In this document: piece by piece, positions 14,265-58,020 of the stretch
Position numbering within the stretch: the first letter of the stretch is position 1
Layout of the letters: each line of letters starts with the position of its first letter
Source of the DNA: Sphingomonas melonis
GTDB taxonomy: Bacteria; Pseudomonadota; Alphaproteobacteria; Sphingomonadales; Sphingomonadaceae
Assembly (NCBI RefSeq): GCF_013409985.1
Contig: NZ_JACCBY010000001.1
Span: 620,001-684,000, forward strand
Direction: 5' to 3'
Length of the DNA stretch: 64,000 nt
The notes under the pieces: model-generated
Database searches by the model: none
Told to the model about the DNA's origin: nothing
Seen by the model: the letters and a program-made list of their open reading frames with translations, nothing else
Translations under genes and position numbers: made by a program

Positions 14265-14340
14265 GGGTCCGTAGCTCAGTCGGTAGAGCAAGCGACTTTT
14301 AATCGAGAGGTCCCGGGTTCGAGCCCCGGCGGACCCACCA
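14265..14340 (+). tRNA. tRNA-Lys(TTT)
   Basis: A 76-nt cloverleaf with acceptor GGGTCCG/CGGACCC, D-arm AGCTCAGTCGGTAGAGC, anticodon loop CTTTTAA (anticodon TTT), T-arm GGTTCGA and an encoded CCA. The last 14 nt are part of the prophage attachment site, and the gene is left intact at the attL side. Confidence 0.97.
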
Positions 14341-14356
14341 TCGACGCTTTCCGGGG
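14327..14356. repeat. attL (30-bp core)
   Basis: Starts at the last C of the T-arm of tRNA-Lys, covers the acceptor 3' strand and CCA, and continues 16 bp (tcgacgctttccgggg). It is identical to 56428-56457, after which one G is missing on the right side. Confidence 0.93.
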
Positions 14357-14496: not shown

Positions 14497-15765
14497 GTGG
14501 CACTAACCGACATGCAGGCGCGCAAAGCCGCAGCCGCTGAGAAGGACTACAAACTGGCTGACGGAGGCGGTTTGTACCTCTTCGTCACCACCAAAGGCTT
14601 CAAATCCTGGCGCTTCAAATACCGATTCGGCGCCAAGGAGAAGGTGTTGACGTTCGGCGGGTACCCTGAGGTGTCGCTGAAGGAGGCGCGCGAGCGGCGG
14701 GATGAAGCTCGCGCCGAGCTCCGCAACAACCAGGATCCCTCGATCGAGAAGCGGAAGCGCGCCATGCGGGCGCATGCATCGGCTGGCGCGACCTTCGAGG
14801 TCGTGGCGAGGCGCTGGTACGAGGCTCAATGCCCCCGCTGGTCGCCTGTGCAGCGCAAGAAGGTCATCCAGGCCCTCGAGCGCGATATCTTCCCTGAGAT
14901 CGGCTCTCTGCCGCTCCTGGACGTAGATGGGCCGATGATCCTGCGGATGCTCCGCAAGGTCGAGGCTCGTGGCGCGATCGACACCGCCAAGCGCCTCCGC
15001 CAGCACGTGTCAGGGGTGTTTGGCTACGGGATGGCCGAAGGGCTCGTCACCGGCGATCCGTCCGTCGGGATCAAGAAGGCGTTGAAGCCGACACCGACGG
15101 GCGGCAAGCAGCCGGCGCTGAAGGACCTCGCCGCAGCTCGCCAGCTGCTCGCCGACATTGAGGCGTCCACCTCGGGTCCGATGACCAAGCTCGCGTCGAA
15201 GCTGCTGGCCCTGACGGCTGTCCGGCCTGGCATCCTGCGTGCGGTGCCCTGGAAGGAATTCGAGGGAATCGACTGGTCAGACCCGGATGCGCCGGCACCA
15301 GAGGCCCTTTGGCGCATCCCTGCGGCGCGGATGAAGCTGGCGATGGAGAACAAGGCGGATGAGGCGTTCGAGCACGTCGTGCCGCTATCCTGGCAGGCTG
15401 TCGAGGTGCTGCACGAGGCCCGACGGCTGACGGGGCGCTTCCCCTATGTCTTTCACAGCGTCCGCTCGACGCGTCAGCCGATGAGCGAGAACACACTGGG
15501 ATATATGTACTCGCGAAACGGCTACAGCGGCCGGCACGTACCGCACGGCTGGCGGTCGACCTTCTCCACCATCATGAATGAGCGCGCGGTCGAGCAGCGC
15601 CGACCGGATGATCGTGCCATCATCGACGCTATGTTAGCGCACCGGCCTAAGGGGGAGTCGGGTTCGGAGATGGCGTATAACCGGGCTGCCTATATGCCGA
15701 GGCGGCGGGAGATCGCGCAGGAGTGGGCGGATCTGCTTTCTACGAGAAGGCACTCGGTGGCCTAG
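14497..15765 (+). CDS. int: P4-type tyrosine recombinase (prophage integrase)
   Basis: A 422-residue integrase of the P4/DUF4102 group. It has an N-terminal arm-binding domain (KDYKLADGGGLYLFVTTKGFKSW ends the first strand set; here abbreviated LADGGGLYLF), a SAM-like core from about residue 100, and a catalytic domain with Arg in LTAVRPGILR, HGWR, and Tyr in AYNR near the end. The frame extends upstream to 14419, but the GTG at 14497 is behind GGAAGGTGGGGG and gives the family-like start VALTDMQARK. It lies 140 bp from attL, in the usual position for an element using a tRNA 3' end. Confidence 0.93.
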   Translation: MALTDMQARKAAAAEKDYKLADGGGLYLFVTTKGFKSWRFKYRFGAKEKVLTFGGYPEVSLKEARERRDEARAELRNNQDPSIEKRKRAMRAHASAGATFEVVARRWYEAQCPRWSPVQRKKVIQALERDIFPEIGSLPLLDVDGPMILRMLRKVEARGAIDTAKRLRQHVSGVFGYGMAEGLVTGDPSVGIKKALKPTPTGGKQPALKDLAAARQLLADIEASTSGPMTKLASKLLALTAVRPGILRAVPWKEFEGIDWSDPDAPAPEALWRIPAARMKLAMENKADEAFEHVVPLSWQAVEVLHEARRLTGRFPYVFHSVRSTRQPMSENTLGYMYSRNGYSGRHVPHGWRSTFSTIMNERAVEQRRPDDRAIIDAMLAHRPKGESGSEMAYNRAAYMPRRREIAQEWADLLSTRRHSVA

Positions 15766-26176: not shown

Positions 26177-26317
26177 TCAGTCCCGCGGCTTGCTTCGACG
26201 TTCACCGACGCGGTTGAGCGCACGCAGCTCGCTCATGCCACGCTGGTTCAGCAACACCCCTGCGATTACGGCGAGGTTGGCAGCGATGAAGGTGCTCAGC
26301 ACGACGTAGCAGGTCAT
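26177..26317 (-). CDS. Single-helix membrane microprotein
   Basis: A 46-residue frame MTCYVVLSTFIAANLAVIAG...NRVGERRSKPRD with one N-terminal membrane helix and a basic cytoplasmic tail. AAGGAGA stands 6 bp before ATG, the best ribosome binding site in this part of the prophage. Overlooked easily because of its length. Function unknown. Confidence 0.6.
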   Translation of the reverse strand: MTCYVVLSTFIAANLAVIAGVLLNQRGMSELRALNRVGERRSKPRD

Positions 26318-50783: not shown

Positions 50784-51037
50784 GCGGCACCGGCCGGGTC
50801 GTCCATATCGGCGCCGGCACCGTCCCCAACACCAACCGGGCGGCGCGGCGCGTGCTGGTCGACCGCCCGAGCGGTGAGCGCCTCCTGTTCTACGTCCTAG
50901 GCACCAGCGCTTATGTAAGCTTTGCGAATGGCGACCGAAAACTTCGGGAGACCCGTCTGCCTTGGCTCACCCGCTGCGAAGCCGGCGCCCCGCTGCTGTG
51001 CCGGTACGGAACGCGCCAGATGCGAAGAGCTATCTAG
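50780..51037 (+). CDS. Small unknown protein, end of late operon
   Basis: An 85-residue basic protein (GRVVHIGAGTVPNTNRAARR, LLFYVLGTSAYVSF). It starts by GTGA overlap with the preceding gene. It is the last gene of the rightward late block. The C-terminus (RYGTRQMRRAI) is arginine-rich. Confidence 0.45.
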   Translation: MSGTGRVVHIGAGTVPNTNRAARRVLVDRPSGERLLFYVLGTSAYVSFANGDRKLRETRLPWLTRCEAGAPLLCRYGTRQMRRAI

Positions 51038-51098
51038 CCACTTCTTTGCGGGTAAAAGTGCAGCTTGCGAGACTCAGATATACGATTACTACGGACGA

Positions 51099-51257
51099 AT
51101 GAATCAGCCGATTTCTGCCGCTTGTGACATGGTCCGGCTTCGCGCCCTCCTCGTCGAGGCCTTGGCCGAAGCTGATAAATGCGATGTTCCGGCAGCGGCG
51201 TATATTGCAGCCGCCCTCGACCGCCTCGATGATGTCATTTCTACTGCATCAATCTAG
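51099..51257 (+). CDS. Small helical protein
   Basis: A 52-residue protein, MNQPISAACDMVRLRALLVE then ADKCDVPAAAYIAAALDRLD. This is a recurrent small helical type in sphingomonads. The upstream part of the open frame is not protein-like. It overlaps the convergent gene end by a few bases. Confidence 0.5.
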   Translation: MNQPISAACDMVRLRALLVEALAEADKCDVPAAAYIAAALDRLDDVISTASI

Positions 51258-51650
51258 CAGTCGCTGTGCGTTGAACATCGCTTCAAGAACCCTTACCACT
51301 GCATTGAAGCCTTGGTCTGTAAGAGCTACCGCTTCATTGTTTTTTTCGATAAGTCCTTCGTGAAGCAACGCAATCAACCAGCGATCAACTAGGCGCGGGC
51401 TCATCCCGTCATGTCTGCCAAGATCGGCTGCGCCAGGATACAGAGCGTTTTCTTCCGCGATGAACAGCTCCAACAAAAGGTTCATCGGCGTCGGCGGTGA
51501 AAAGCCCGCTGGCAAGTGTGACGATACGACACGGGACGCTGCAAGCATTTTTTCGGCCAACTTGAGCGTAGTGGTTGTGCTCACGACGCGCACTTTCCCG
51601 TCGGGAACCGATAGTATCCGCGGCAACGTCGACCTCCCCTTAGAAGCCAT
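51249..51650 (-). CDS. Winged-helix (MarR-like) regulator
   Basis: A 133-residue protein with helix-turn-helix PRLVDRWLIALLHEGLIEKN and a wing (NEAVALTDQGFNAVV), preceded by MNLLLELFIAEENALYPGA. This is the MarR-like pattern common in sphingomonads. The TTG at 51626 stands 6 bp behind the excellent AAGGGGAGG inside the frame and may be the true start. ATG 51650 has no Shine-Dalgarno. The structured RNA A and its terminator lie about 130 bp upstream, so its message could be attenuated. Confidence 0.7.
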   Translation of the reverse strand: MASKGRSTLPRILSVPDGKVRVVSTTTTLKLAEKMLAASRVVSSHLPAGFSPPTPMNLLLELFIAEENALYPGAADLGRHDGMSPRLVDRWLIALLHEGLIEKNNEAVALTDQGFNAVVRVLEAMFNAQRLLD

Positions 51651-51783
51651 GGCTAATCTATTTTAGCGAGGATTTGCAAGGACTTGCGGTTTTTGAGCAA
51701 GCGCATAGCGCACTGGGATATCGAGAGGGCAACGCCTGGTTGACGAGCTCGCGTCCGCAACGTCGACTTCGATATGCCAATGT

Positions 51784-51914
51784 TGAAAAAGGAGCCCACC
51801 CGCACAGGGGGCTGATGGGCGGGCTCCAAGGTTGCATGTCCGATGAGGGTTCTGACCCGTCGAGCATGGCGCGGTGTGCGCCCGATTCGGCACGCCGTCG
51901 CGCACATGGGCTAT
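51784..51914 (-). ncRNA. Structured RNA element A with intrinsic terminator
   Basis: On the minus strand: a conserved block ATAGCCCATGTG, a stem UGUGCGC/GCGCACA, a second hairpin CAUG-CGA-GGGU / ACCC-UCG-CAUG, then GGAGCCCGCCC/GGGUGGGCUCC followed by UUUUUC. The last part is a strong terminator (51784-51827). By-eye alignment to element B (56575-56706) is about three quarters identical over the first 100 nt, with paired changes in the hairpins. It begins just after the stop of the 62-residue gene and could be its 3'-UTR RNA, an sRNA, or a leader of the next gene. Confidence 0.65.
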
Positions 51915-51918
51915 TGAT

Positions 51919-52107
51919 CTAGGCCTGTTGCAGTGCCTGCCGAGCGGCAACGGCAAGCTCGCGGAACGCGGCCTGCCACGTCGCGCCTGCCTCACTCCAG
52001 GGGATCGGACCTTCGAGGTTCCCGATCCGGCTATCCCAAAGCTTCTCCGCGAGGTGCTCGTTGACGGCGTTGATGTCGTTGCTGGTGCATAGGCGGCAGC
52101 GGGGCAT
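51919..52107 (-). CDS. Small protein with CRLC motif
   Basis: A 62-residue protein starting MPRCRLCTSNDINAVNEHLA, then DSRIGNLEGPIPW. A CxxC at the N-terminus suggests metal binding. It directly precedes the structured RNA on the same strand and probably shares its transcript. No family recognised. Confidence 0.55.
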   Translation of the reverse strand: MPRCRLCTSNDINAVNEHLAEKLWDSRIGNLEGPIPWSEAGATWQAAFRELAVAARQALQQA

Positions 52108-52151
52108 GGTGAATCGCTTGCGTTGTTGTTCCTGTTACGTTCCATAGCCGA

Positions 52152-52427
52152 ATGCGTCGCCAGCAGCGAATCACGGTCGAGCTATCGGTGCAGATCCTGC
52201 GCGCGGCGATGGCGTCGGGTGACCGGATTGATCCTGCCGCGGCACCGGTCCGCCTCGCGCTGCGATGCCTCTGGCCGCACTGCCCCGAGCGCTGGCCGCT
52301 GGTCCAGTTCTGGGAGGGCGGACAAGGTACGCACGATATCGGCCGGGCGCAGTCCATGACGGCTTCGTTCCACGGGATCATCCGTCAGCTGCGTCGGTCG
52401 GGTGCTTGGTCCGACACTACGGACTAG
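52152..52427 (+). CDS. Unknown small prophage protein
   Basis: A 91-residue protein (MRRQQRITVELSVQILRAAM, with RLALRCLWPHCPERWPLVQF). Rightward, opposing its neighbours. The ribosome binding site is weak. Composition is protein-like. Its end overlaps the convergent microprotein by 4 bp. Confidence 0.5.
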   Translation: MRRQQRITVELSVQILRAAMASGDRIDPAAAPVRLALRCLWPHCPERWPLVQFWEGGQGTHDIGRAQSMTASFHGIIRQLRRSGAWSDTTD

Positions 52428-52522
52428 TTCTCGTCGTACCCGCGAAATACCCAGCCGAGGAGTAATACGGAAAGCACGAACGCCGCGGCAAACGCGAGAA
52501 AGACTCTAAGCTCTACATGCAC
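52424..52522 (-). CDS. Single-helix membrane microprotein
   Basis: A 32-residue frame (GTG 52522) VHVELRVFLAFAAAFVLSVL...GWVFRGYDEN with one membrane helix. The ribosome binding site is weak. Similar in design to other microproteins of the prophage. Confidence 0.4.
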   Translation of the reverse strand: MHVELRVFLAFAAAFVLSVLLLGWVFRGYDEN

Positions 52523-52566
52523 GCGGACGCGCTAGCCGCCATATAGCCCAGCCGCAAATCATCGGC

Positions 52567-52782
52567 TTAGCTTATGCTCCCGTGCGTGGGCTGATAGCCG
52601 ACGGGCACGCCGGCCGGGTTAGGCGTGAACCACGCCTGCCCTTGGCGGACGAGAATGGTTTCGTTGCGGACGCCGTTCGCGTCATCAATTTTCGTGACCA
52701 CGCGCACCCCTTCAGGCGCCGTGTAGATGGGGTGCCACTTCCTCACGGGCCACGCATAGCGGCAGTCCATCGCGCGGAGCAT
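52567..52782 (-). CDS. Small phage protein (DUF551-like pattern)
   Basis: A 71-residue protein: VRKWHPIYTAPEGVRVVTKI, then ANGVRNETILVRQGQAWFTP and a closing PTHGS. This W-x-P-I-x-T-A-P layout with a terminal P-T-H is typical of small phage proteins of unknown role. ATG 52770 is an internal start. Confidence 0.6.
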   Translation of the reverse strand: MLRAMDCRYAWPVRKWHPIYTAPEGVRVVTKIDDANGVRNETILVRQGQAWFTPNPAGVPVGYQPTHGSIS

Positions 52783-52861
52783 TAACCAAAGATGCTGTCG
52801 AGCAATGGCATTCGCCAGCTGCGCCGGTCAGGCGCCTCGTCGGAAGAGACGCAGACATAAC

Positions 52862-52884
52862 AAAGGGGGCCGAAGCCCCCTTTG
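52862..52884 (-). terminator. Intrinsic terminator with UUCG loop
   Basis: On the minus strand AAAGGGGGC-TTCG-GCCCCCTTT followed by GTT. A six- to nine-pair stem with the stable UUCG tetraloop. It ends transcription of the 52948-53187 gene. Confidence 0.8.
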
Positions 52885-52947
52885 CGAGCACCGGAGTGCT
52901 CCATTTGACCTGGCGGACGATGAGAGGGGTACGTCAGGCCAACGGTA

Positions 52948-53187
52948 TTAGTTGCTGTCGCTGTCGTCGTCGTCAGCAACGATGACGATGCCGGCGACGA
53001 CCGCCGCGGCGGCAACGAGAGCGATAATGATGCCACCACCGGCAAGCTCGCTCTTCTTCGCCGAAGCCGAACCAGCGCGAACGGACTTGGCGACCGACAG
53101 GCTGGCTGCCGGGTTGACCGGAGCGGCGGCGACAGGCGCCGCAACGAGCGCGGTGGCGGCAACGGCGGCGAGGTACTTCCGAACCAT
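52948..53187 (-). CDS. Small exported membrane protein
   Basis: A 79-residue protein: signal peptide MVRKYLAAVAATALVAAPVA, a Ser/Ala stretch, then a membrane helix (GGGIIIALVAAAAVVAGIVI) and an acidic end DDDDSDSN. This type is frequent in sphingomonads. ATG 53187 is 6 bp behind GGGAGA. Terminator follows 64 bp later. Confidence 0.7.
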   Translation of the reverse strand: MVRKYLAAVAATALVAAPVAAAPVNPAASLSVAKSVRAGSASAKKSELAGGGIIIALVAAAAVVAGIVIVADDDDSDSN

Positions 53188-53329
53188 GATCATTCTCCCG
53201 GCTATCTATTACGGCAATTGTGCATTGCAGCATCAATCGTAAAGAAATGGTTACCGGGGTCAACCCGCTGATCTTTTGAAGGAATTATCCGTTTGCCGGG
53301 AGGATCAGCTGCCTAGACGGATGAACGCC

Positions 53330-53572
53330 CTAGTGCGTCGGCATCCACGGATCGCGCGCGCCTAGCTCCCGCTCGTCGATCATCAGCAGCTGGGCCAGGC
53401 AGAGCCGATCGTCTTCATGCAGCATCTCCGGGCTGCCGTGTTCGACGTATTGCCGTAGGTAGCCCGCGTGACGGCTGAGCATCGCAGACAATTCGGCGAG
53501 GCAAATCCCGCGCTCGTTGGCACGGCGGCCGAGATTGGCGCGCGCCTCCTCTGGCGTAGTTGGTTCAATCAT
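53330..53572 (-). CDS. Short HTH-like protein
   Basis: An 80-residue protein. TPEEARANLGRRANERGICL and AELSAMLSRHAGYLRQYVEH resemble the helix-turn-helix of XRE-type regulators; the later LAQLLMIDERELG also fits. Role unknown; possibly a phage transcription factor. Confidence 0.6.
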   Translation of the reverse strand: MIEPTTPEEARANLGRRANERGICLAELSAMLSRHAGYLRQYVEHGSPEMLHEDDRLCLAQLLMIDERELGARDPWMPTH

Positions 53573-53585
53573 CGCTTAGGCGCGC

Positions 53586-53861
53586 TCATATACGCAGGTT
53601 CCGGTGTCGCAGCTCGGCGCGAAGGGCGTCAACTCCGTAGTTGCTGGCTTCCCTTGAGGCGCGCGCATAGGCCGCGATTAAACGGTCGTCTGGCCAGGCA
53701 CCTTGCAGGCCCTCGACCTTCTGCTTGAATACCGCGATGACACTGGAGGTGGATTGTTGATCGTTAATCCCGGTCACACCGACGCCACCATGCTCTAGTT
53801 CATGAATGCGGGCACGCAAGCCGGCGAGGCGTGCGAGATCGTGATGGGACTCGTCGGTCAT
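53586..53861 (-). CDS. Unknown small protein
   Basis: A 91-residue mostly helical protein (MTDESHHDLARLAGLRARIH ... DRLIAAYARASREASNYGVD). A TTG at 53867 is an upstream start. It overlaps the end of the small ORF upstream (stop at 53864). Same direction as the HTH gene. Confidence 0.55.
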   Translation of the reverse strand: MTDESHHDLARLAGLRARIHELEHGGVGVTGINDQQSTSSVIAVFKQKVEGLQGAWPDDRLIAAYARASREASNYGVDALRAELRHRNLRI

Positions 53862-53863
53862 AT

Positions 53864-53965
53864 TCAAACGTTACGCGGCCTCTCGCGATTCGCGCAAGAC
53901 GCGCTCAGCGCAGCGACGATCAGCGCCGCGCCGAAAGCAAGGAAGGTCAGGGACAGGCTGCTCAT
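53864..53965 (-). CDS. Single-helix membrane microprotein
   Basis: A 33-residue frame MSSLSLTFLAFGAALIVAAL...CANRERPRNV with one membrane helix, a cysteine and a basic tail. It lies immediately upstream of and overlaps the next gene, which supports translation. Function unknown. Confidence 0.4.
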   Translation of the reverse strand: MSSLSLTFLAFGAALIVAALSASCANRERPRNV

Positions 53966-54094
53966 CTGTGCGCCCTAACCCTATGCACCTCCCGATGTAA
54001 GGCGCCAACGCGGTCGCAGGAATCGCCGCTTCTGTAACTCGACGCGCCGCTGGCTCGGCCCCGATCTACTGTCAAGCGAAGTGGTCGTGGCCGA

Positions 54095-54346
54095 TTACTT
54101 CGCCTGTCTGTCTAACCTGGCAGCGACCTGCTGCCAGCCAGATCGAGACCGGCATTCGACCCGCCTCGATGCTTTGTTCGCTAAGCATATCTTTGGATCG
54201 CGGAGCGCAGGGGGGCTGGTCCTCCAGCCCTGCTCGCCAAATAGAGACATTGGCGCCGGCGCTCCAAACCGCGAGGGGGTCCATTGCGCTTCCGCGGCAG
54301 CAGGAGTCAGCAGCAACGCGAGAGCAGGAATCGCGTGATATTTCAC
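54095..54346 (-). CDS. Small exported protein
   Basis: An 83-residue protein (GTG 54346 behind ACGGAGG) with a signal peptide (MKYHAIPALALLLTPAAAEA) and a mature part rich in Arg/Ser with two cysteines (KICLANK, VECRSRSG). The two Cys may form a disulphide. Secreted prophage cargo of unknown role. Confidence 0.6.
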   Translation of the reverse strand: MKYHAIPALALLLTPAAAEAQWTPSRFGAPAPMSLFGEQGWRTSPPALRDPKICLANKASRRVECRSRSGWQQVAARLDRQAK

Positions 54347-54447
54347 AAGCGGGCCTCCGTAGAAACGTCAGAGGCTATGCCTCAACCAAGCAAGGTGCAA
54401 GCCCCGGACCCATGAGTTGCAGCGCGCCCTGATGTGCTAGCTAGAAG

Positions 54448-54729
54448 TCAGCGCGGCGCGATTGCCTCGACCAATGCCGATGAAGGGCGAAATTTGATGC
54501 GGGGCCGGGTTGAGGCATCCACCGGCTCACGGTTGCGTGGGTTATGCTTGCGCCCCTGGCTAGGCGGCGCGACGGAAAAGGCTGCAAAGCCACGAAGCTC
54601 TATTCGTCCGTGCTGAACGAGTTGGTCCGACATAGCTTCGAAGAAAGCGTTCACCAGCGCTTGGCACGTGGCGCCAGACAGATCCGGGTTCGAAGCGGCT
54701 ATGCGTTCGATAAGTTCGGCTTTGACCAT
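54448..54729 (-). CDS. IHF/HU-family DNA-bending protein
   Basis: A 93-residue histone-like protein. KAELIERIAASNPDLSGATC is the N-terminal helix pair. GRIELRGFAAFSVAPPSQGR and RNREPVDASTRPRIKFRPS are the saddle and DNA arms. Closest to IHF-beta pattern. A prophage copy may support recombination, cos packaging or regulation. Confidence 0.82.
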   Translation of the reverse strand: MVKAELIERIAASNPDLSGATCQALVNAFFEAMSDQLVQHGRIELRGFAAFSVAPPSQGRKHNPRNREPVDASTRPRIKFRPSSALVEAIAPR

Positions 54730-54931
54730 CCGTCTCTATACCTCGGGCTACTATCAAGAGATCATCTCATGATATGCCAGCTGCGTCAGCCATCGCGGCT
54801 ACATAGCGCCTACCCTTTACCAGCCGTCGGGCGTCCACTAAGCTTGCGGCAAGCCTCGCCCAGCCAGTGGGTCGCTTCATCCTCTGTCATCCGCCAAACC
54901 TATGCTGCCGCACGGCGTCTCTTGAGCAGAC

Positions 54932-54990
54932 AAAAAAAGGGCCGCCGAAGCAGCCCGAAGGATTAGGAGAGGATGCCTGAAAGGCACTCT
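54932..54990 (-). ncRNA. Hairpin plus terminator, possible small RNA
   Basis: On the minus strand, AGAGagTGCCT-TTC-AGGCAtcCTCT (54966-54990) is followed 10 nt later by GGGCTGC-TTCG-GCGGCCC and seven T (54932-54956). No leftward gene I can support ends just before it (the 54810-54890 frame is beyond it). So this may be a small RNA or an orphan terminator. The 492-bp gap 54730-55221 holds nothing else I recognise. Confidence 0.5.
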
Positions 54991-55221
54991 CTGTGTGCGG
55001 AGGGCGCTTGTCGCTGGCGAATGCAAAGACGGTTAACGTACTTGCGCGAATTGCAATCGAGCAGCCGGCGGGGCCCTCCATCCCTGATGGGTGAAGCGCT
55101 TCGATACGAGTGCAAGGCAGAACGCGTATGATCTCGCTTAGTAGGGACCAGATGGATTCGATGCGCATCCGGAACAATGGCCCGTGGATCGCTTTTATGA
55201 TCCCGTCACCGGGAGAGCTTC

Positions 55222-56223
55222 ATGATCCGCCGCCACATCGCCGCTTTGTCGGCCAGCGCAATCCTCCTCGCGCCTGTTGCGCCTCTCGCCGCGCAGAAAA
55301 CAGTTCGCTCAATTTCGGCGACCGACAAGGCGCAGGGTGGCCAGGCGCATCCGCAACTACTCGCGGAATTCGGCGGGGCCTATAAGGGGCCTCAAGCTAC
55401 CTTCGTAGAACGCGTCGGCAAGCGCGTCGCCGTCCAGTCCGGGCTGTCGAATGCGGGCGGCGACTTCACCGTCACTCTGCTCGACTCGCCGGTAGAGAAC
55501 GCGTTCGCCATTCCGGGGGGATATATCTACGTCACCCGCCAGCTGCTCGCGCTGATGACATCAGAGGCCGAACTCGCATCGGTGATGGGGCACGAAGTGG
55601 GCCATGTCGCCGCTCGCCACGCGGCTTCCCGAAACACGCGTGCGACGATCGGCGGCCTGCTCGCCCGCGGCGTCGGACTTGCCACCGGCAGTGATATCGC
55701 CACGCGCGTCGCGGGTGCGGGCGCGCAACTCTACACGCTGAAATACGGCCGTGATCAGGAGTATCAAGCCGATGCGCTTGGCGTCCGCTACATCGCCGCG
55801 GCGGGCTATTCTCCCTATGCCTCGGCAGATATCCTCGCCGCCCTGGATGAATCAACCGGGCTGTCGGCGCAGGCGAGCGGCACCGCCCGTTCCGCACCGA
55901 CCTGGGCGTCGACGCACCCGAACGGAGCCGATCGCGTGCAGCGCGCGGCGGCGCTTGCGAAAGCCACAGGCAAGCCGGAGACCGCGATGGTACAGGACAC
56001 GGCATTCCTGCGCATGCTTGACGGCCTGCCCTATGGTGATGCCAAGCAGGGCCGCAGGGTTGTCCGGATCGTCACCGTGGGCCCAAGGGACACGATCGAC
56101 ACTCTCAGCCAGCGGATGGCAGTAGCGGATAGCAAGCGCGACCGTTTCCTCGTCATGAACGGCCTACCCGATGACGAGCCGCTGAAGCCCGGAACGCTCG
56201 TCAAGCTGGTCGTCGCGGCGTGA
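55222..56223 (+). CDS. Exported M48 family metallopeptidase
   Basis: A 333-residue peptidase. Signal peptide MIRRHIAALSASAILLAPVA. Zinc motif HEVGHVAARHA (HExxH) and the downstream Glu in YGRDQEYQADALG. The C-terminal part has a LysM-like VTVGPRDTIDTLSQRMAVAD. Same direction and codon bias as host genes. It is the last gene before attR, opposite to the other right-end genes, so it looks like cargo that could act in the cell envelope. Confidence 0.85.
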   Translation: MIRRHIAALSASAILLAPVAPLAAQKTVRSISATDKAQGGQAHPQLLAEFGGAYKGPQATFVERVGKRVAVQSGLSNAGGDFTVTLLDSPVENAFAIPGGYIYVTRQLLALMTSEAELASVMGHEVGHVAARHAASRNTRATIGGLLARGVGLATGSDIATRVAGAGAQLYTLKYGRDQEYQADALGVRYIAAAGYSPYASADILAALDESTGLSAQASGTARSAPTWASTHPNGADRVQRAAALAKATGKPETAMVQDTAFLRMLDGLPYGDAKQGRRVVRIVTVGPRDTIDTLSQRMAVADSKRDRFLVMNGLPDDEPLKPGTLVKLVVAA

Positions 56224-56285
56224 TCCGAGTCGTGAATCGGTGCCCCGCGATTGCCGGCGGATATTCGAGCCATGGCGGCGAGGTA

Positions 56286-56354
56286 GTACCCTGCACTTCA
56301 CGCTGAACGAGCGATTGTGCCGCGGCGCTCATGGCACCTCACGTGCAGGGGTAC
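56286..56354. repeat. Inverted repeat near attR
   Basis: GTACCCTGCAC (56286-56296) and GTGCAGGGGTAC (56343-56354) form imperfect arms with one extra G. Just inside attR, it may be an arm or regulatory site. The left arm region shares GGGGGTACC. No gene fits 56224-56427. Confidence 0.5.
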
Positions 56355-56427
56355 CAGTGGGGGTATTTAGCTAATGCTTCGTTCCAGAACGTCGCATTCA
56401 CCTAACAAATTCGCTAAGAGTGGTGGG

Positions 56428-56457
56428 CGGCGGACCCACCATCGACGCTTTCCGGGG
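56428..56457. repeat. attR (30-bp core)
   Basis: Perfect copy of attL 14327-14356, followed by cat where attL has gcat. It contains only 14 nt of the tRNA 3' end. Confidence 0.93.
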
Positions 56458-56574
56458 CATCTGCGGCCGCAGCGACCGGCCGGTGCCGGCACCATGCCCT
56501 TGGCGGCCTGGTTGTCGCGGCGCCAAGCTGAGCATCGCGCCCTGCCGATAGTCCGCTGCGGCGATCTGCCGCTT

Positions 56575-56706
56575 CGGAAAGGAGGAGCTCGCCGGCAGCA
56601 GCAACGGCCGGCCCGCGAGCTCCAGTGTGCATGCCCGAGCGAGGTTCCGTCTCGGGCATGGCCGAGTGTACGCGGCTAATCCGGCACCGTCGCACACATG
56701 GGCTAT
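56575..56706 (-). ncRNA. Structured RNA element B, host copy
   Basis: Related to element A. Minus strand: ATAGCCCATGTG, GUGU...ACAC stem, a perfect ten-pair hairpin CATGCCCGAG/CTCGGGCATG (56630-56639, 56651-56660), then GGAGCTCGC/GCGAGCTCC (56584-56592, 56615-56623), with only a weak pyrimidine tail. It lies 118 bp outside attR in the host sequence that adjoined tRNA-Lys before integration. The gap 56458-57008 holds no gene I can support otherwise. A small + frame and a - frame over it are not conserved between the copies. Confidence 0.6.
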
Positions 56707-57008
56707 CAACCTGTTTTGTAAGCAGAATTACTGCTCAGGCGCGCATCGCTGATGCTGCGGTGACGTGGCCGATGGAGCGGCCGAGCTGGCCAGATGGAAT
56801 CGACGGTACGGACATGGGCGACCCGACCGCCGCAGGAGCAATCCTCGCGACGAGGCTTGCTTGGCACGCCCAGCGGCGGTTTCAAGAGCCTGTTGCGGCA
56901 TTGCAACACGATGACGGTGGCGTTCGCAGAGCCGGGATATCGATCCCAAAATGGGTGTTTAACCCTTCGACAGGCCGTGTTTCGCCTGCCGCTTACAAGG
57001 TGATTGAT

Positions 57009-57584
57009 ATGAAGAAGCTGCTTCTCGCAGCGGCCGGTGCCGCATTCCTCATCCCCGCTGCAGCCTCCGCTCAGGACACGACGTCCGACGGTTCGCGCGC
57101 GTTCGGGATCGACCCGTATGTCGGCGTGACCGGAGTCTATGAAGGCTTTGAGAGCAATCCCGGCCACGGCATCCCGTTCTCGGCGCCCGGCGATCGTCTG
57201 AAGGGCGGTCTCGTCGAGGGCGTCGCGGGTGTGAACGTGCCGCTCGGATCGTTCTTCGTCGGCGTCGAGGGCAATGCCGCCAAGGGGTTCAGCGGTGACA
57301 TCGATTGGGAATATGGCGTCCATGGCCGCGCCGGCGTGCGCGCTGGTGAGACCGGGCTGCTGTACGGCAAGGTCGGCTATCGGTGGGTGAACTTCGATCG
57401 CTACGGCAGCAACAGCCCGGATTTCGGCCGTATTTCCTACGGCGTAGGCGGTGAGTTTGGGCCGAAGGCGGTGGGGCTTGATGGGTTGGTGAAAAAGGAA
57501 GGCGTGCGATTCCGCGCCGAGGTGGCGACAACCGGCAATTTCGAGACGGTTCGTCCGTCGCTGGGGATCATCGGTCACTTCTGA
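57009..57584 (+). CDS. Outer-membrane beta-barrel protein
   Basis: A 191-residue protein with signal peptide MKKLLLAAAGAAFLIPAAAS and alternating strands (DPYVGVTGVYEGFES, VAGVNVPLGSFFVGVEGN, GLLYGKVGYRWVNFD, PSLGIIGHF with C-terminal Phe). The C-terminal aromatic and strand pattern match OmpA/OprF-like small barrels. ATG 57009 is 8 bp behind AAGGTGA. It is the first clear host gene right of the prophage. Strong terminator follows. Confidence 0.82.
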   Translation: MKKLLLAAAGAAFLIPAAASAQDTTSDGSRAFGIDPYVGVTGVYEGFESNPGHGIPFSAPGDRLKGGLVEGVAGVNVPLGSFFVGVEGNAAKGFSGDIDWEYGVHGRAGVRAGETGLLYGKVGYRWVNFDRYGSNSPDFGRISYGVGGEFGPKAVGLDGLVKKEGVRFRAEVATTGNFETVRPSLGIIGHF

Positions 57585-57609
57585 GACGTTCCCACACCGT
57601 TGCCTCAGG

Positions 57610-57646
57610 GAGCCCCGGACCATGCGTCCGGGGCTCTTTGCGTTTT
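57610..57646. terminator. Bidirectional intrinsic terminator
   Basis: GAGCCCCGGAC-CATGC-GTCCGGGGCTC gives an 11-pair stem with a T-rich right side. It serves the outer-membrane gene, and with the A-rich left side possibly the VanZ gene. Confidence 0.85.
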
Positions 57647-57648
57647 AG

Positions 57649-58020
57649 CTAGAGGCGGCTCCTCGGCCGGGCCGGCCTGACCGCGGCCACCACCACGATG
57701 ACGCCGACGATGATCGCGGTGTCCGCCACCCAGTCCATGATGTCGCAGTCGCGGTGCAGCGCCGGGATCGACTGGACCAGTTCGATGATCGCGCCGAGGA
57801 AGCTCAGCCGCTCGGCGATGCGCAGCAGGTCGGCGCGCGGCCAGCCCGCGCAGGCGAGGATCGTCAGCGTGCCGAACGCGGCCATATGCTGCCATTTGTC
57901 GACGACCTCGACGGTGATCGGCGGGCGTGGCGACAGCGCCATGACCAGCGCGAAGACGAGGGCGGCCCAGAAGAGCAGCCGTGCGATCGGCGCGACGCGC
58001 GCCCGTCCGGTTCGAAACAT
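57649..58020 (-). CDS. VanZ-like membrane protein
   Basis: A 123-residue inner-membrane protein. VEVVDKWQHMAAFGTLTILA is the VanZ motif (D-K-x2-H-x3-F). Three or four membrane segments and a DCDIMDWVADTAIIVGVI end follow. Function in this family is poorly defined. It ends just inside the shared terminator. Confidence 0.75.
   Translation of the reverse strand: MFRTGRARVAPIARLLFWAALVFALVMALSPRPPITVEVVDKWQHMAAFGTLTILACAGWPRADLLRIAERLSFLGAIIELVQSIPALHRDCDIMDWVADTAIIVGVIVVVAAVRPARPRSRL

Follow-up and report, generated by a model that had tools for sequence, protein, structure and literature searches.

Small RNAs (sRNAs) derived from 3' untranslated regions (3' UTRs) form a general class in bacteria. 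To our knowledge, work on regulatory RNAs in temperate phages has centred on enterobacteria, and alphaproteobacterial examples are little described. Among the Sphingomonas papers listed in a search of titles, mostly outside the subscription journals, none was on such RNAs or on prophage small RNAs. Phage-encoded small RNAs, sponges included, are already known according to parts of two papers (PMC12559287 and PMC12197685), and the first of these, in the same part, describes AgvB and AsxR as phage-encoded anti-sRNAs. Phage-related work on 3'UTR-derived sRNAs also exists, as part of PMC13250501 indicates.

A prophage of Sphingomonas melonis carries an RNA-like element that resembles these systems in some respects. 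The DNA analysed is a stretch of 64,000 nucleotides (contig NZ_JACCBY010000001.1, positions 620,001 to 684,000), called the window, and coordinates refer to it unless another locus is named. The original prediction placed one element (A) inside an att-bounded prophage and a second (B) just outside attR. This arrangement was borne out by a 30-bp exact repeat, with B lying 117 bp beyond it. A third element (C) is on a viral contig. The principal features are as follows.

14265-14340, plus strand: tRNA-Lys(TTT), the integration target (ARAGORN, Rfam)
14327-14356, plus strand: attL core, 30 bp, exact direct repeat at the 3' end of tRNA-Lys(TTT)
14512-15765: integrase
51784-51914, minus strand: element A, RNA-like, in the prophage (BLASTN, Smith-Waterman comparison to B and C, folding)
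51895-51914, minus strand: conserved 5' block of A, AUAGCCCAUGUGCGCGACGG
56428-56457, plus strand: attR core, 30 bp, exact direct repeat
56575-56706, minus strand: element B, outside attR (BLASTN to A, folding)
56687-56706, minus strand: conserved 5' block of B (block comparison of A, B and C)
L223:3556-3685, on viral contig IMGVR_UViG_3300048855_000198: element C, clearly A-like

A is on phage DNA, since it lies between attL and attR and is also present in the IMG/VR copy of the same prophage, which is identical in the compared stretch (11,893/11,893 bases). Like 3'UTR-derived sRNAs, A stands right behind a stop codon and has a terminator at its end; unlike them, B stands without a gene, and A is known here from sequence alone. 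As with AgvB and AsxR, a small structured RNA on a prophage has a relative outside it; in contrast to them, no host sRNA partner was found for A or B, and B is on DNA missing from a relative. A third comparison is with the MmgR/alphaR8 sRNAs (RF00519, suhB), also small structured RNAs with a terminator, one of which is 3 kb away on the same prophage arm; A and B, however, fail to match the covariance model of that family. This neighbouring sRNA (54924-54992, minus strand; 41.2 bits against a cut-off of 41) has an HU-type gene (54448-54729) close by. It belongs to the att-bounded island, lying beyond the prophage end called by IMG/VR (53572) yet inside attR, which suggests phage carriage. The genome contains four MmgR/alphaR8 copies over the cut-off, one of them in the prophage.

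A and B are related, as had been proposed. A BLASTN search of the 4.4-Mb genome with B as the query returned B itself and then A (E = 1.2e-5, 72% over query positions 1-92), and the next best of the 40 matches listed had an E-value of 0.145. Smith-Waterman scores were 88 for A-B, 103 for A-C and 76 for B-C, and none of 500 dinucleotide shuffles equalled them. The best chance scores in 692 kb of other DNA, both strands included, were 47 for A, 53 for B and 46 for C. This sample comprised 40 regions, one from the same genome and the others from other genomes of the genus, and represents a tiny part of the DNA searched; A's own top score in it, 53, belongs to a candidate D that is considered below. 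The similarity between A and B is confined to the element and ends at both borders. Their flanks (100 bases upstream and 80 downstream) compare at the level of mononucleotide shuffles, of which 269/500 and 45/500, respectively, scored as high.

The 5' block is the best-kept part of the element in all three copies. It is identical at 19/20 positions in A-B, 17/20 in A-C and 16/20 in B-C, against 61/107 (57%), 62/104 (60%) and 55/107 (51%) in the remainder. The Fisher p-value for this difference is 0.0008 in A-B, which is biased by the choice of the block for its conservation, 0.041 in A-C, which is freer of selection bias because C came from a protein search, and 0.026 in B-C. Conservation of the block and of the terminator arms exceeds that of the middle of the element, and hairpin 1 is strongly variable (10/26, 9/26 and 11/26 identical positions among A, B and C). 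The reading frame over the element is unconserved, in agreement with the original prediction. The frame that opens at the AUG of the block stops after seven codons in B (MCATVPD-stop), gives MCETGLP-stop in C and runs for 84 codons in A; no good ribosome-binding site was seen, and a leader peptide was rejected.

Element C was found through a protein encoded next to A.

51249-51650, minus strand: 133-aa ORF downstream of A, same strand, with a weak PHROGs match to a replication initiation protein (E = 0.0087)

A search of viral contigs with this protein led to two loci (2/18 candidate stretches), the prophage itself and the contig of C, and a second neighbour-protein search arrived at the same two contigs (2/567 candidate stretches). 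In Rfam 15, A and B were below every gathering score, and the only window matches at the gathering score, tRNA and suhB, were away from both. At E-values up to 5 in 51000-57100, the single match touching either element was M23 (56538-56582, plus strand, 20.5 bits against 41.2, E = 2.3), which is sub-threshold and, on the opposite strand, shares 8 bases with the 3' end of B. Covariance models were run over 93 sources (model R1) and over the window, the 40 regions (up to 19.5 kb) and 6 viral loci (model R2); with stricter filters, no other clear member was found in 295 genomes of the genus. BLAST of these 295 genomes yielded, beyond the home genome, short pieces of at most 48 bases. Among 199 family genomes, three matched B at E-values up to 0.001, namely its own and two with short pieces of the terminator region. 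BLASTN of phages (with A and C) and plasmids (with A, B and D) gave no match, except for A in six plasmid records at E = 0.3. An exact-pattern scan of genome contigs produced at least 119 stretches, none of them A/B-like beyond the pattern (best score 29 against 58 for A-B), and of the viral stretches collected by pattern (3, 27, 42 and 2) only the home prophage and the C contig look real. Weak hits, including L386 and L451, looked like chance terminator matches and were discarded.

There are thus three clear members, A, B and C, in everything searched. The lack of an Rfam match and, under the stricter filters, of another clear member in 295 genomes makes the family look rare, and it is new-looking as well. 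With no further clear model hit in these genomes, and with covariation among A, B and C that is not significant (below), the outcome runs largely against the original prediction; C was nevertheless found, via the neighbouring protein. One additional candidate comes from G481, the closest relative found.

L385:1501-1626 of G481, minus strand: candidate D, which shares hairpin-2 and terminator sequence (fold z-score -3.80)

Candidate D scores 53, 43 and 41 against A, B and C, and none of 500 shuffles of D scored as high. The D-A score of 53 is higher than the 47 that comes next by chance for A in the 692-kb sample, where B reaches 53 by chance. The 5' block is lost from D, and its model E-value of 0.002, obtained in one of 295 genomes, means that about 0.6 such hits are expected by chance. 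Membership of D is unproven, and no conclusion rests on it. A tiny hydrophobic protein is common to the prophage (26177-26317, minus strand, MTCYVVLSTFIAANLAVIAGVLLNQRG) and to the chromosomal spot beside D, where the G481 version (MTCYIVLGAFIASNVALIAGVMLNQRG) lies at about L385:1388-1469 on the plus strand.

The best explanation, which we hold tentatively, is that a single small structured RNA cassette spreads on mobile DNA of the genus, with A, B and C as its copies, and may have some regulatory role, perhaps as a 3'UTR-type RNA. The RNA of A would be the 3' end of a transcript of the preceding gene, ORF62, comprising its 3' UTR and terminator, or would come from a promoter inside ORF62, and its release as a 3'UTR-type small RNA is conceivable. 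In such an RNA, the 5' block (AUAGCYCAUGUG, with the first six bases unpaired in the predicted fold of A) would serve for pairing or binding, and the terminator hairpin for stability. Transcription, processing and regulation in trans of the cassette RNA are thus putative steps. Relatedness, sharp borders, the position behind ORF62, conservation of the block and the terminator of A count for the cassette. The non-significant covariation, the weak fold of C, and the failure to find a target or a promoter-like site count against it. A stronger version of this proposal, in which the elements form a new family of mobile regulatory RNAs of Sphingomonas prophages that has a fixed 5' block along with a terminator of its own, inserts behind ORF62 and persists beside a prophage without ORF62, is doubtful.

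In the prophage, A directly follows a gene.

51919-52107, minus strand: ORF62, a 62-aa prophage protein whose stop codon is 4 bases before A (homologues, dN/dS-type comparison)

ORF62 is a real protein gene under purifying selection. Homologues occur in 45/295 genomes of the genus at E-values up to 0.001 and in seven viral loci (7/31 candidate stretches). Synonymous change is 0.48-0.69 per site against 0.06-0.18 for nonsynonymous change, in 9/9 pairs. The protein has no match in PHROGs or Pfam. A lies downstream of this same-strand stop codon, across a gap of 4 bases, and includes a terminator, which is the position typical of a 3'UTR-derived sRNA; B does not have this position, and C stands behind a truncated ORF62 copy with a poor U-run. 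By position, A would be the 3' UTR and terminator of ORF62. With a gap of only 4 bases between stop codon and block, any separate promoter would have to lie inside ORF62. A simple scan found no promoter-like site near A or B, with one site in 5.9 kb (53263-53236) against 1.4 in shuffles.

What stands behind ORF62 varies between genomes. C is placed differently from A, behind an ORF62 copy reduced to residues 25-62 (68%), and TAGATCAATAGCYCATGTG joins the ORF62 tail to the element in both. The intact ORF62 of the C contig (92% identical) has no element behind it, and the element is absent behind every other ORF62 homologue examined. The slot that A occupies here holds an MmgR-type sRNA in G270 and another hairpin with a terminator in G324 and G414. 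The G270 sRNA is directly behind the ORF62 homologue (L258:1757-1827, the same as L423:9900-9970; 42.9 bits against 41). The G324 and G414 arrangement (L280, L291, L297 and L298) is a recurrent GC-rich hairpin and long terminator, CCTCG.TCTCCG/CGGAGAGCGAGG, recognised by eye; in some copies the terminator is followed by AACTTTTT, and it was scored by the terminator script in L291. Overall, terminator-like sites follow 13/44 ORF62 copies against 103/600 random windows, a mild excess only. Lone copies of the 3' part of ORF62 were also seen in the home genome (C5:122126-122188, L287), in G386:C3, G439:C216 and G349:C7, and at L223:3435-3548. It is as if the DNA of the ORF62 tail were a recombination point or consisted of retained pseudogene tails.

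In a simpler explanation, A is the plain 3' UTR and intrinsic terminator of ORF62, acts only in cis by insulating 51249-51650, and B and C were carried off by recombination. We regard this as quite possible. A begins just past the ORF62 stop codon, has the best terminator of the set and precedes a same-strand gene, and the recurrence of partial ORF62-tail copies elsewhere implies that the surrounding DNA seems to recombine. A bare terminator, however, would have no need of a conserved 5' block. B lacks ORF62 yet has a stronger fold than A, and the intact ORF62 of the C contig does without such an element.

For the RNA structure, the following parts were defined.

51784-51827, minus strand: terminator hairpin of A with a UUUUUC tail (11-pair stem in the fold; purpose-written terminator script)
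51835-51868, minus strand: hairpin-2 region of A, CAUG..UCGGACAUG (alignment consensus of A, B, C and candidate D)
56575-56623, minus strand: terminator-like hairpin of B, tail UCCUUUCC, poor U-run (fold and sequence)
56630-56660, minus strand: ten-pair hairpin 2 of B, CAUGCCCGAG/CUCGGGCAUG (fold)

The folding z-score is moderate for A (-2.31), far beyond shuffles for B (-4.67) and hardly distinct from them for C (-1.29). The predicted ending of A in a terminator with UUUUUC is upheld by the 11-pair stem and the U-run. Its tail is the only one with a good U-run, the others being UCCUUUCC in B, with no U-run, and CUUUCA in C. A simple terminator scan listed neither the A nor the B hairpin and found 4 terminators against a shuffle mean of 4.3; it missed the terminator hairpin of A because of its loop limit (3-8). 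The claim that both elements share three hairpins holds in part. B has its ten-pair hairpin 2, and both have a terminator-type hairpin, but hairpin 2 of A is absent from the predicted minimum-energy fold and contains a C.A mismatch. In the consensus fold of A, B and C alone, the 3' arm of hairpin 2 pairs with the 5' block instead; hairpin 2 reappears once candidate D is added. The predicted fold of A leaves only about the first six bases of the block free, with CAUG mostly paired, and in B still fewer bases of the block are free.

Compensatory base changes had been taken as proof of selection on RNA structure, a claim that the covariation analysis does not sustain. No hairpin-2 pair has a change on both sides, and of the double changes between A and B the one from C-G to U-A in the terminator stem stands out most clearly. 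The consensus of A, B and C has 27 pairs with 2 double changes, as many as in 49/500 shuffles, and a covariation score reached by 32/500. Adding D gives 26 pairs with 4 double changes (12/500), a covariation score reached by 2/500 and a number of paired cells reached by 0/500, figures that include the unproven D and a structure taken from the very sequences compared. At most, then, selection on RNA structure is plausible.

Another explanation is that A, B and C are relics, now decaying, of a phage module that once functioned and are kept only by descent and hitch-hiking. C has a weak fold and a truncated ORF62 before it, and a good U-run is missing from both B and C, either of which may therefore be a relic. 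There are only three clear members, and hairpin 1 is highly variable. As an account of all three elements, decay is nevertheless unlikely, given the better preservation of the 5' block and the terminator arms than of the middle, the ten-pair hairpin of B and the double change that keeps a terminator-stem pair. B has no ORF62 in front and yet folds more strongly than A and C, so the RNA part can persist on its own.

The locus of B bears on its origin.

56458-57650 (right border approximate; no strand assigned): insertion beside attR with B and an outer-membrane-protein-like gene, missing from the tRNA-Lys(TTT) locus of relative G481

As far as the end of tRNA-Lys(TTT), the match between G481 and the window is 90.8%; about 50 bases after this tRNA it resumes at window position 57683, in a host gene whose start in the window is at about 57650. 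The prophage and the DNA from 56458 to about 57650 (about 1.2 kb), B included, are missing from that locus. In G424, G379, G222 and G489, the 9-10 kb that follow this tRNA have no match to the window, and the tRNA flanks of these four genomes and G481 hold nothing above chance when compared to A, B and C (best score 49). The outer-membrane-protein-like gene (57009-57584, plus strand) was labelled from reading its signal peptide and has no Pfam match; relatives of its protein are present in 194/295 genus genomes. G481 has this gene elsewhere, beside tRNA-Lys(CTT), with a 97% identical protein and without B. The gene is perhaps cargo moved between tRNA-Lys sites. Another gene, apparently cargo too, encodes an M48-family peptidase at the right end of the att-bounded island (55222-56223, plus strand; PF01435, E = 1.4e-34).

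A, B and C are therefore all on DNA that looks acquired. The original prediction regarded B as a host sRNA and A as a copy captured or mimicked by the phage, possibly a decoy. Given its absence from the G481 tRNA-Lys(TTT) locus, B is not demonstrated host backbone, and the main support for the decoy idea is therefore gone. B does lie outside attR, and the near-identical 5' blocks would set A and B in competition for any partner they share. Pairing between A and B, however, is no better than between shuffles (26/60 as good), no clear orthologue of B was found in the 295 genus genomes, and the tRNA flanks of the five relatives hold nothing that scores above chance. We consider this origin very improbable.

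The search for partners of the 5' block identified no clear target among its near-complements in the home genome. There are 15 besides A and B (17 rows), against 2 for a backward control pattern. One of the 15 is at a plausible start codon, that of a phospholipase-D-like gene (a label from reading the protein), where about 0.4 such sites are expected by chance on a rough hand estimate. An anti-sRNA (sponge) aimed at the MmgR/alphaR8 sRNAs is the least probable of the explanations: the prophage itself carries an alphaR8 sRNA and a sponge of this family is described in Caulobacter in part of PMC12559287, but the interaction energy with the prophage MmgR-type RNA, the one of the four genomic copies for which it was computed, is at the shuffle level (15/60 as strong for A, 55/60 for B, 29/60 for C and 53/60 for D).

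In summary, the structured RNA cassette on mobile DNA remains our tentative choice, and the A/B/C family adds at most one more example to the known phage-encoded small RNAs. Without expression, A would be no more than an ordinary 3' UTR of a phage that has two relatives scattered elsewhere. If A is expressed, this arm of the prophage would carry two small RNAs, A and the MmgR-type sRNA, and phage-borne RNAs could be sought at the slot behind ORF62 in the genus's other prophages.
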